The position numbers and the translations under genes are program-made. A stretch of 64,000 nucleotides of DNA, taken from the NCBI RefSeq assembly GCF_002067135.1, contig NZ_CP020105.1, positions 930,001-994,000 of the forward strand, given 5' to 3'. Within the stretch, counting starts at the first letter, position 1; every line of letters starts with the position of its first letter. The notes under the pieces are model-generated. The model did not search any database. It worked only from the letters and a program-made list of their open reading frames with translations, and was not told where the DNA came from. This stretch comes from Spirosoma rigui. GTDB lineage: Bacteria; Bacteroidota; Bacteroidia; Cytophagales; Spirosomataceae. Below are positions 1,721 to 5,356 of this stretch, piece after piece.

Positions 1721-4117
1721 CTAAAACCTGACCCGTATGCCCGCCAGAAAATTTCGGCCGGCCTGTGGGTAGTAGGCATTCTCGGCCGTGACCTTGCCTT
1801 CGGCAATGTAGGCAAACGTGTAGCCATTCGATTCATACAACTCGTTCAGGACGTTGTTGAACAGCAGCGTGAACGCAATCTCCTGCGCAAATTTCGGCTT
1901 AATCGAATAGATGATCCGAATATCGTTGGTTGTGTAAGCATTCAGCTTGCGACCCTCGTTGGAGGTATTATCCAGGTACTGTTTGCCTACGTGCTTCGAT
2001 AGCAGGCCCAACTCCAGCCCTTTTGCGGGCGTAAACAGTAGTTGAGATCCGGCAATCACGTTCGGCGAAAAGGAAATGTCCGTTTCCCGGTATTGAAAGC
2101 TCTGCTGGCTGCCATCGTCGAAGTTATCCAGGTACTCCGTGAAATTCTTGACCTTATTCTGGCTGAAGGTTGCATTGACATTCCAGCGAAGATTTTTGGC
2201 CAGCCGCACACCCGCTTCCAGCTCTATACCAGCCCGGTAACTAACGGGAATATTGATCCGGTTAGCAGCTCCCACGTCGTTCAGCTTACCAGACAGCGCC
2301 AGTTGATTTTTATAATCCATGTAATACAGGTTGGCCGTAAAAGCCAGCCCTGACGACTGGATCTTGTAGCCCGCTTCGTAGTCGATTAGCTGCTCGGCCT
2401 TGGGACGGCTTTGCGGAGTCGACTGGGTATAATCATCACGGTTGGGTTCCCGGTGCCCAACGCCCACAGAGGCATATACCGTACTACGGTCGTTCAGGGT
2501 ATAGGTTACTCCGGCTTTGGGATTGAAGAAGGTCAGGCTGGCCGATTGCTGCACGTTTTGCAACTGGCTGTTGAAGCCCAGAAACGAGTACCCAACCGTG
2601 CGCACCTGCATATCGGCAAAAGCATTGAGCTTCGGACTAAACTGGTAGAATGCTTTCGCATACAGGTTGAAATCGGTTTTAACAGCATCATCATTATAAT
2701 ACCGATCGCGGATATTGGTGTTGCCCGCCACCCGCGCCCAGATTATTTCGCCGTAGTGCCCACCCTGATACTGGTTCCAGCCCCCGCCAATGTTGGCCGT
2801 CAGCTTCCCGAAACTGTTGTAATCAAGTGAGAAAACAGTGCCGTAGTAATCATTGGCCAACCACCGGCGCCGAATGATATCCGTGCGCTGGATAATCGAA
2901 TCGCCGATGGTAACGTTGGGCAACCCGTAATTGCTGTACTTGTCGTTGGGGCGGTACTGCTCGTAATACCCTTTTCCTTTGGTGTAGAAAAATGACGTAT
3001 TGAGCCGCCAGTTTCGACTCAGTTCGTGTGAGCCGATCAACTGGTAATTATCCTGCTGATAGTTATCAATTTCGTTTTCGTACGTATAAGGGTTAAACGT
3101 CCGGTTCGTTTTTAGTAAATTCTCCGGCACACCGCCCCACGACTGATACGTCCGCTCCTGACCCGAAAACACGTTGAACCGGATAAAGCTCTTATCCGAA
3201 TAGTAACCACCCGACAGATAGAACGACTTCAGGTCCGAAAAGGCCCGGTCGACGTAGCCATCAGAATTGATTTTTGAGAGCCGGGCATCCAGCACAAAAT
3301 GGTTATTGAGCAGGCCCGTTCCGGCCAGTACGTTCACTTTTCGCGTGCCAAATGATCCCGCCGATAGGTTCGTTTCGGCATACGGTTTAGCCTCCAGCTT
3401 GTTGGTCTGGATATTGACCGATGCGCCAAAAGCACCCGCACCGTTGGTCGACGTACCGACTCCCCGTTGAATCTGGATACTGCTCACCGACGAGGCAAAA
3501 TCAGGCATATCCACAAAAAAGGTGCCCTGCGACTCGGCGTCATTATACGGAATACCATTGAGCGTTACGTTGACACGGGTCGCGTCAGAACCCCGGATCC
3601 GGATGCCCGTGTAGCCCACCCCCGTACCCGCGTCGGAGGTCGTTACAATGGATGGGGTGAAGTTGAGCAATTGCGGAATATCCTGCCCCATGTTAAGCTT
3701 GTCCAGGTCCCGGCGCGATACGTCGGTATAGGCGATAGCCGATTTCTGATTGGCCCGGGTGGCGCTCACCACAACCTCATCGACGGCAATAGCCGTTTTT
3801 TTCAGCACAATCGGCAGCGTAACATCCTGCGTCAGGTTGAGCATCTGGGTTTGTGGCTCGTAACCCAGCAGCGACACCCGCACCGATACGGGTCCGGGTT
3901 TAAGATTGGTCAGGCGAAAATTTCCGCTGGCATCGGTAAACGTACCGATGTATGTTCCTTCAATAGTGATGGCAGCGCCAGGCAGCAACTGGCTGGCCGT
4001 AGCCTGGTCATCGGTTTCACGGACGGTACCGGAGATAACCAGTTGCGCCTGGACCTGGCAAACAGACAGGCATAGCAGGAGTAGTAATGATGCGTAGTAG
4101 GTCGTCTTTTTTTTCAT
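1721..4117 (-). CDS. TonB-dependent receptor, probable thiamin transporter
   Basis: Outer-membrane beta-barrel receptor of 798 aa that takes up its ligand using TonB energy. A signal peptide (MKKKTTYYASLLLLLC..., about residues 1-24) is followed by a carboxypeptidase-regulatory-like domain (about 27-115, with the GAAITIEGTYIGTFTDASG strand pattern), a plug domain (about 130-235, with IRIRGSDATRVNVTLNGIP) and the barrel, which ends in an aromatic residue (RVRF) as expected for BAM insertion. The mRNA leader contains a TPP riboswitch 73 bases upstream of the start. TPP control of TonB receptors is known in Bacteroidota and points to thiamin or a thiamin precursor as the ligand; that substrate is an inference from regulation, not from the protein. 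No other thiamin gene follows, so the receptor is a single-gene regulon member here. Confidence 0.9.
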   Translation of the reverse strand: MKKKTTYYASLLLLLCLSVCQVQAQLVISGTVRETDDQATASQLLPGAAITIEGTYIGTFTDASGNFRLTNLKPGPVSVRVSLLGYEPQTQMLNLTQDVTLPIVLKKTAIAVDEVVVSATRANQKSAIAYTDVSRRDLDKLNMGQDIPQLLNFTPSIVTTSDAGTGVGYTGIRIRGSDATRVNVTLNGIPYNDAESQGTFFVDMPDFASSVSSIQIQRGVGTSTNGAGAFGASVNIQTNKLEAKPYAETNLSAGSFGTRKVNVLAGTGLLNNHFVLDARLSKINSDGYVDRAFSDLKSFYLSGGYYSDKSFIRFNVFSGQERTYQSWGGVPENLLKTNRTFNPYTYENEIDNYQQDNYQLIGSHELSRNWRLNTSFFYTKGKGYYEQYRPNDKYSNYGLPNVTIGDSIIQRTDIIRRRWLANDYYGTVFSLDYNSFGKLTANIGGGWNQYQGGHYGEIIWARVAGNTNIRDRYYNDDAVKTDFNLYAKAFYQFSPKLNAFADMQVRTVGYSFLGFNSQLQNVQQSASLTFFNPKAGVTYTLNDRSTVYASVGVGHREPNRDDYTQSTPQSRPKAEQLIDYEAGYKIQSSGLAFTANLYYMDYKNQLALSGKLNDVGAANRINIPVSYRAGIELEAGVRLAKNLRWNVNATFSQNKVKNFTEYLDNFDDGSQQSFQYRETDISFSPNVIAGSQLLFTPAKGLELGLLSKHVGKQYLDNTSNEGRKLNAYTTNDIRIIYSIKPKFAQEIAFTLLFNNVLNELYESNGYTFAYIAEGKVTAENAYYPQAGRNFLAGIRVRF

Positions 4118-4189
4118 GATGAAAAAGCATTGACGATAGGCAAGGGGCCAATCCTACCTCTTAGTAAGCAATACGAGAATAAATGATGA

Positions 4190-4272
4190 ACTCCAGTTCC
4201 CTTCCCGGCATTATCCGGGCAGGTTCAATGGGTATAATCTCAGCCCGTTATGTTAGGGCACCCCTTCAAAGA
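4190..4272 (-). ncRNA. TPP (THI-box) riboswitch
   Basis: Read on the minus strand, the leader holds the conserved THI-box landmarks in order: GGGGTGCC, then GGGCTGAGA, then ATACCC followed by TTGAACCTG, then the second helix with CCGGATAATGCCGG and AGGGA. These are the pyrimidine-binding and pyrophosphate-binding halves of the thiamin pyrophosphate aptamer. It sits directly upstream of the TonB receptor at 1721-4117 in the same orientation. High TPP would be expected to shut off the receptor. I see no strong T-tract terminator between aptamer and start codon, so control may act on translation initiation. Confidence 0.95.
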
Positions 4273-4281
4273 TTAGCGATA

Positions 4282-4307
4282 CAAATGTACGCTTTTCCAC
4301 AAAACAA
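4282..4307 (-). promoter_or_regulatory. Probable promoter of the TPP-regulated receptor
   Basis: The minus strand reads TACATTTG at 4289-4282, an exact match to the Bacteroidota -7 box TAnnTTTG, placed about 10 bases before the riboswitch. A TTG lies 15 bases further upstream (4307-4305), slightly closer than the usual 17-23. Confidence 0.55.
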
Positions 4308-4350
4308 CCGGAAATCTCGCGCGTTAACTAGTAAATCAGTATAGTTAAGT

Positions 4351-4593
4351 ATGAGCGAGTTTGATTTAGTTGTATTGCAGGATGATACTGCTAACGGACG
4401 CCTGAAAGTGGGCGATGTAGGCACAATTTTGACCGTATATAACGACGGAAAAGCGTTCGAGGTTGAGTTCGTTACGCTTACCGGCGAATCAGTTGCGGTG
4501 GAAACACTGTTACCGCATCAGATTCGGATGGTACGATCGTCGGAAGTGATGGCGGTTCGGGACATGATGGTAAAAGAAGAAACCAATTCGTAA
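4351..4593 (+). CDS. DUF4926 domain protein
   Basis: Small 80-residue protein of the DUF4926 type: a single beta-rich domain with the pattern LKVGDVGTILTVYNDGKAFEVEF followed by a GESVAVETLL strand. Family members are small proteins of unknown biochemical role, often found near toxin-antitoxin or accessory genes, but there is no such partner here. It is divergent from the TPP-controlled receptor and 67 bases upstream of the TPR protein gene. No signal peptide or membrane segment is seen, so it should be cytoplasmic. Confidence 0.75.
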   Translation: MSEFDLVVLQDDTANGRLKVGDVGTILTVYNDGKAFEVEFVTLTGESVAVETLLPHQIRMVRSSEVMAVRDMMVKEETNS

Positions 4594-4633
4594 AGTTTTG
4601 AGCTTTATGCTTTTCCACTCGAACAAATAGTTC

Positions 4634-4658
4634 TAATTTTGCAATCCAAATTGCAAAA
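4634..4658 (+). promoter_or_regulatory. -7 promoter box and palindrome before the TPR gene
   Basis: TAATTTTG at 4634-4641 matches TAnnTTTG exactly. It overlaps a palindrome with 9-base arms, ttttgcaat (4637-4645) and attgcaaaa (4650-4658), which ends two bases before the ATG at 4661. The overlap suggests an operator or a very short leader. No -33 TTG is found at the right distance. Confidence 0.5.
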
Positions 4659-4660
4659 CC

Positions 4661-5356
4661 ATGAGCAAAAAGAACACCGGCTTGGATTTTTTAGAAGACC
4701 CGGACGCATTAGAAAATAAGTTAGAAGATGTTGGTGATTTCTTTCAGCAGAATCGGAACATCGTGCTGGGTTTAGTTGGCGGTCTTGTTGTGCTGATCGT
4801 TGGTTTCTTTGGCTACCGCGCCTACGTTGGCAGCCAGGACGAAACGGCACAGGTTGAATTGTTTCCTTCGGTTTACAAACTCGAAGCCGATTCGCTGAAG
4901 CAAGCCCTCAATGGTGATGGCAAAACGCCCGGTTTGCTGGCCGTTGCCGATAATTACGGGTCTACGCCCGGTGGTAATCTGGCCGAGTTTTACGCTGGCG
5001 TCGGATTATTGAAACAGGGTAAGTATGATGAAGCCATTGACCACCTGAAAGATTTCAGCTCGTCGGATCTGCTGGTGCAGGCACGTGCCTATGCCCTGAT
5101 CGGCGATGCGTATATGGAAAAGAAGAGCTACGACGAAGCCGCTGACTATTACCAGAAGGCTGCCGACTATAAATCGAATAAGTTCTTCACCCCCGGCTAC
5201 CTCATGAAACTGGCCGTTGCTTACGAGCAGGCCAAGCAGAATGACAAAGCCATCAGTACTTACAACGATATCATCGAAAAATACGCTCAGTCTGCCGAAG
5301 CCGTAAGTGCCAGGAAGTATAAATCCGTGCTTGAAGCGACGGTCGGCGAGTCATAA
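4661..5356 (+). CDS. Membrane-anchored tetratricopeptide repeat protein
   Basis: 231-residue protein with a short cytoplasmic N-terminus, one membrane helix (about residues 35-55, IVLGLVGGLVVLIVGFFGY) and a C-terminal periplasmic-facing part made of TPR-like helices (YDEAIDHLKDF, YDEAADYYQKAADY, DKAISTYNDIIEKY). The layout is like the YfgM/BamD-adjacent class of single-pass TPR proteins that help envelope protein folding; the exact role is not known. A rho-independent terminator follows the stop codon, then ribH. Confidence 0.8.
   Translation: MSKKNTGLDFLEDPDALENKLEDVGDFFQQNRNIVLGLVGGLVVLIVGFFGYRAYVGSQDETAQVELFPSVYKLEADSLKQALNGDGKTPGLLAVADNYGSTPGGNLAEFYAGVGLLKQGKYDEAIDHLKDFSSSDLLVQARAYALIGDAYMEKKSYDEAADYYQKAADYKSNKFFTPGYLMKLAVAYEQAKQNDKAISTYNDIIEKYAQSAEAVSARKYKSVLEATVGES

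Follow-up and report, generated by a model that had tools for sequence, protein, structure and literature searches.

A TPP riboswitch before a predicted thiamin receptor of Spirosoma rigui, and a candidate expression platform at the start codon

In Spirosoma rigui, a TPP aptamer precedes the gene of a TonB-dependent outer-membrane receptor. The locus raises two questions: what the receptor imports, and how binding of TPP would reach its synthesis. The window, which is the whole stretch of DNA analysed, comprises 64,000 nucleotides of contig NZ_CP020105.1 (positions 930,001 to 994,000); coordinates below are those of the window. The locus is delimited by three features.

4282-4289, minus strand: -7-type promoter element TACATTTG (TAnnTTTG, as in family leaders), directly upstream of the aptamer
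4181-4275, minus strand: TPP aptamer (THI element), full-length match to RF00059 (model 1-105, 54.0 bits, E 6.9e-10, cmscan over 501 bases)
1721-4117, minus strand: TonB-dependent receptor of 798 aa, assigned to the OMthi/Omr1 type from its Pfam domains and the TPP element upstream of orthologs

The aptamer is real. It has the CUGAGA core and the full length of the RF00059 TPP riboswitch, from which it differs by a weak P1 with non-standard pairs in the alignment. Its score is the lowest of the three TPP matches in the 5.83 Mb one-contig genome, and lies 0.3 bits under the gathering score of 54.3 bits. For that reason the window gave zero TPP matches when scanned against Rfam with default settings, and a permissive scan recovers the aptamer. 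Nor does the low score point to a chance match, since the aptamers of orthologous leaders elsewhere reach 55-79 bits. The first-pass annotation had proposed a complete aptamer and named a covariance-model scan as the refuting test; the scan found it at full length. The proposed span of 4190-4307 does overlap the aptamer, but loses nine nucleotides at its 3′ end and takes in the promoter. Within the 85 nt before the aptamer, 100 of 113 family leaders have the sequence TAnnTTTG, which we take to be the -7-type promoter consensus; in most of them its distance varies by a few nucleotides only. Immediately upstream of the riboswitch, a gene that runs divergently (4351-4593, plus strand) encodes an 80-aa DUF4926 protein.

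The gap between aptamer and receptor gene is 63 nt. The receptor contains CarbopepD_reg_2, Plug and TonB barrel domains (Pfam); NCBIfam returned only TonB families, all under their cut-offs, and a sequence search of the PDB gave no match at E 0.001. The pairing of aptamer and receptor is deeply conserved across the family and the phylum. Of 121 genomes sampled from the family, 119 encode the receptor, and a CTGAGA/TPP motif stood upstream of it at 113 of 117 family loci, the other four being fragments or contig-edge loci. Among 80 named Bacteroidota loci, the closest being that of Spirosoma validum (receptor 80%), 57 have a TPP element above the Rfam cut-off immediately ahead of the receptor, and 22 of the other 23 were recognised by motif. 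At best matches of about 28-33% identity in 20 genomes, a TPP element was upstream in all 20, which argues strongly, by regulation, for a thiamin-class receptor. The conserved pairing suggests that the protein belongs to the known OMthi/Omr1 type of thiamin receptor and would transport that ligand.

The receptor was also described in the first pass as lone, without another thiamin gene nearby. This holds, since the thi, tenA, TPK and pnuC proteins of the same genome have no match in the window, of which the receptor is the sole thiamin-linked gene. The accompanying prediction, import of thiamin or a precursor by a receptor of a kind known in Bacteroidota, gains support from the pairing across family and phylum, and the known case is OMthi (BT2390) of Bacteroides thetaiotaomicron (PMC5613172). 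OMthi, named omr1 in other papers, is likewise a TonB-dependent receptor behind a TPP riboswitch. It was reported to be needed for growth at low thiamin once biosynthesis is removed, and is itself apart from pnuT-tnr3 (PMC5613172). The absence at the window receptor of the pnuT and tnr3 operon, a feature of OMthi/Omr1, is therefore not decisive. The two systems differ in pnuT, since none under TPP control was found in the S. rigui genome; the likeness to BT2390 is one of receptor type and TPP control. In one depiction, omr1 is a transporter of unclear specificity (PMC12442306).

Thiamin is probably the ligand. It is rather unlikely that the receptor takes up a precursor instead (HMP, thiazole, a degradation product) or something else. 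Such a role would suit the salvage genes thiM, thiD and tenA found behind a TPP switch in this genome, and its sole PnuC-type transporter, which scores as a nicotinamide riboside PnuC and is not preceded by a TPP element. Against it, a biosynthesis mutant of B. thetaiotaomicron needs more thiamin after deletion of OMthi (PMC5613172), and a pnuC/pnuT-like gene accompanies some orthologs (it lies on the same fetched stretch as the receptor at 23 of the 226 scanned loci, in some of them not next to it).

The two other TPP elements of the genome score 70.1 and 64.7 bits. One stands upstream of thiS (identified by eye), thiC, thiE, thiG, thiH and a ThiF/MoeB-type gene, and one upstream of thiM, thiD, tenA and a second thiE (again by eye). 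The genes of thiamin diphosphokinase and of the single PnuC are located elsewhere and lack a TPP match. With these biosynthesis genes and the receptor, the organism should be able both to synthesise thiamin and to take it up. The receptor would serve thiamin scavenging in a thiamin-making organism, and the switch-receptor pair may be useful as a marker of such scavenging. Both further leaders contain an anti-aptamer strand, with a duplex of -16.6 kcal/mol in the thiS leader (L001 1501-1700) and a long duplex of -22.9 kcal/mol in the thiM leader (L002 1501-1660), where it overlaps a stem next to the AUG.

The second question concerns the expression platform, which the first-pass annotation did not include. 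Three elements of the leader are relevant.

4260-4265, minus strand: AGGGGU, 5′ strand of P2 of the aptamer, which is proposed to pair alternatively with the platform loop (from A-GGGG conservation and phylum-wide pairing)
4135-4158, minus strand: platform hairpin GGUAGG-AUUGGCCCCUUG-CCUAUC with loop hexamer GCCCCU at 4143-4148 (covariation; covariance model R1)
4102-4136, minus strand: start-codon hairpin, UCGUC (4136-4132) with GACGA (4106-4102, codons 4-6) and inner UUUUUCA/UGAAAAA around the AUG (folding; covariation in relatives)

The anchor pattern of the platform hairpin, CYCC[TA] with the first base left free, is matched by 100 of the 113 family leaders. Their loop hexamers are GCCCCU (53), ACUCCU (28) and GCUCCU (19), summarised as RCYCCU, and every one is complementary to AGGGGU of P2. 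For the stem, 91 hairpins were anchored, 77 with a GG-ended stem, of which 58 were distinct; 39 of these, chosen for clean register, form alignment A2. In these 39 sequences, 99.1% of cells are paired, against at most 63.7% in slid versions, and there are 18 double-change cells versus 4.0 in shuffles (0/500). In the genome, covariance model R1 gave 46.5 bits at the platform site and 18.0 bits (E 2.8) at the next place. Across 61 family genomes, the platform model found a match at E 0.1 or better in 43; of 34 matches at E < 1e-3, 33 are next to the receptor, and the remaining match is on a different contig of its genome (G010). The stability of the platform hairpin alone is no better than that of shuffles (z -0.41). 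The distance from loop to AUG is near-fixed, mostly 27-34 nt in leaders outside L095-L111.

The anchor pattern is missing from 13 family leaders. In 11 of them the AUG follows the aptamer core at a distance of 5-7 nt, which leaves no space for a platform; the two others (L094, L100) are irregular. An A precedes GGGG in 100/100 hairpin leaders versus 5/11 of the direct ones; the other six share one genus, so that this contrast represents few events. Outside the family, filtering left 90 loci, and dereplication 83. In these 83, pairing of the aptamer 5′ strand is stronger with the platform of the same leader than with those of others (-12.81 versus -11.81 kcal/mol; 0 of 10000 permutations). Of the 90 loci, 46 had the strict loop motif, versus 13.8 expected in shuffles. 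The exact RCYCCU loop is therefore a feature of the family, and the phylum-wide statement rests on complementarity. Two other readings of the loop were set aside: that of an anti-Shine-Dalgarno mimic, because 53 of 100 loops read GCCCCU, and that of a partner in the 3′ GAAGGGA, because one invariant loop C would stay unpaired.

In the window, the start-codon hairpin has an energy of -8.3 kcal/mol (z -2.64, 2/200 shuffles equal or better), about equal to the -8.2 kcal/mol of the platform hairpin. In relatives, codons 4-6 (of UUAACGAC type, and frequently Thr-Thr) pair with the GUCGUUAA-type bases that follow the platform hairpin, and an inner pairing UUUUC/GAAAA puts the AUG in or beside the loop. 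With leaders from 39 dereplicated genomes, pairing with their own first codons was better than with those of others (-9.15 versus -6.92, 0 of 10000 permutations). The median folding z over these leaders was -2.11, and 31 of 39 had at least 6 pairs spanning the AUG; against the hairpin, z was above -1 in 8 leaders, and 8 had fewer than 6 such pairs. Shared ancestry is accounted for in the leader counts by dereplication only.

Alignment A3 of this hairpin holds 41 of 57 class I leaders and was biased, having been chosen after the folds were known; hence all 57 were realigned and recounted. The recount, with leaders not selected by fold, is weaker than A3 but still clear: 78.0% of cells are paired, at most 54.1% in slid versions, with 41 double-change cells versus 19.5 in shuffles (0/500). 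Three stem bases are paired upstream in 86/87 cells and downstream in 72/87 (29 leaders). Leaders L095-L111 were excluded from A3 and A5 because their AUG lies inside the stem. They form a second class, in which the 3′ strand of the start-codon hairpin contains the AUG (UUCGUAAUAAU with AUUGUUAUGAA).

It is proposed, with a probability of about 60%, that the riboswitch lowers synthesis of the outer-membrane thiamin receptor when TPP is sufficient, as a translational OFF switch whose target is the start codon. Without TPP, AGGGGU would pair with the platform loop in a pseudoknot that keeps the platform hairpin in place at the expense of the start-codon hairpin, and the receptor would be translated. 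With TPP bound, AGGGGU would be locked in P2, the platform hairpin would lose its support, and the start-codon hairpin would close over the AUG. The elements, their complementarity and their covariation are read from the sequence; that TPP would change the balance between them, we infer. No Shine-Dalgarno sequence precedes the AUG, the 17 nt between hairpin and AUG being GUCAAUGCUUUUUCAUC. This fits published reports that Bacteroidia do not use Shine-Dalgarno sequences (PMC6847099, PMC9976891), their ribosomes not recognising them.

Several observations speak against the proposed switch, among them those given above on the stability of the platform hairpin alone and on leaders with a weak start-codon hairpin. 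Nested folding of the ligand-free leader already gives the start-codon hairpin together with an AGGGGU-CCCCUU pairing (-48.2 kcal/mol), from a program that scores nested structures only, so that the pseudoknotted ON state is outside its reach and ligand dependence is inferred. The overlap of the platform and start-codon hairpins is limited to 2 bases in the window, and is up to 3 in relatives. That the start-codon hairpin forms without ligand could also mean that it is constitutive and sets basal translation, TPP acting only through the anti-aptamer loop, or that a protein or the ribosome reads this loop. CUCCUUU resembles the anti-Shine-Dalgarno tail of 16S rRNA, as do the ACUCCU or GCUCCU found in 47 of 100 loops. 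The other 53 loops, GCCCCU, are less 16S-like yet complementary to AGGGGU, and anti-aptamer bases track the aptamer strand across the phylum, which makes this alternative unlikely.

Transcription termination is common for TPP riboswitches of other phyla, and one hairpin does sit between aptamer and gene. A switch in which a terminator forms ahead of the gene once TPP is bound is nevertheless improbable: no terminator-like site was found on the minus strand of 3900-4700, the U tract begins about 8 nt past the hairpin and is part of the start-codon hairpin, and the distance from loop to AUG hardly varies. In B. thetaiotaomicron, OMthi and pnuT transcripts were reported to change hardly at all with thiamin (PMC5613172), which is consistent with translational control and equally with no control. 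A survey reported transcriptional activity in 6 of 57 TPP switches, with none of the six from Bacteroides (PMC12121620). Finally, the score just short of the Rfam cut-off and the non-standard P1 pairs could be taken for an aptamer that has degenerated and lost its function, which is very improbable given the retained core, the orthologous aptamers that clear the cut-off, and the conservation of platform and complement across 100 leaders.

Translational TPP switches of the E. coli type combine an anti-aptamer strand with sequestration of the Shine-Dalgarno sequence. The proposed translational OFF switch would share with them a platform strand competing for the aptamer 5′ strand, and presumably the OFF logic. 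It differs in that the loop of a hairpin provides the competing strand, and that the start codon and codons 4-6 would be sequestered instead of a Shine-Dalgarno sequence. In a direct type, the aptamer is next to the start codon (PMC2258182); it is matched by the 11 family leaders without platform hairpin (L030, L069, L070, L072, L073, L075-L079, L085), unlike the window leader, with 80 nt from aptamer core to AUG.

How TPP switches function in Bacteroidia was called uncertain in a 2017 study (PMC5613172). Another study, of covariation across whole riboswitches, dealt with terminator types, and its text holds no words starting with 'Bacteroid' (PMC13273304). No description of an expression platform of this kind was found in the literature searched, in which subscription papers were mostly out of scope. 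Aptamer and receptor are thus of a known kind, and the platform is new as far as that search shows. It offers a concrete model, accessible to mutation, of how a riboswitch could control translation in the absence of Shine-Dalgarno pairing.

At 16 of 105 loci the AUG is preceded by a Shine-Dalgarno-like sequence, in many cases with a CCUCC partner; Rhodohalobacter (L234) is an example. Platforms thus differ between lineages: the aptamer-receptor pair stays and the platform changes. A joint reading, held tentatively and at slightly less than even odds, is that translation would be controlled without Shine-Dalgarno sequence, the P2 strand being held by the hairpin loop when TPP is absent and an OFF hairpin, partly in the coding sequence, burying the AUG. 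The type of platform would then follow the ribosome's way of starting across Bacteroidota, with the start-codon hairpin in many lineages, a CCUCC/GGAGG hairpin where Shine-Dalgarno-like sequences occur, and direct occlusion in one genus.

Two minor observations were made in more distant loci. In TPP elements of Mucilaginibacter/Pedobacter-type loci (L131, L135, L189, L196, L211, L216, L223, L226, L235), tens of inserted nucleotides separate the P2 3′ strand (ACCC) from the ACCUG segment. A group I intron match adjoins a tRNA gene in a Cytophagales MAG (L159 5553-5933).
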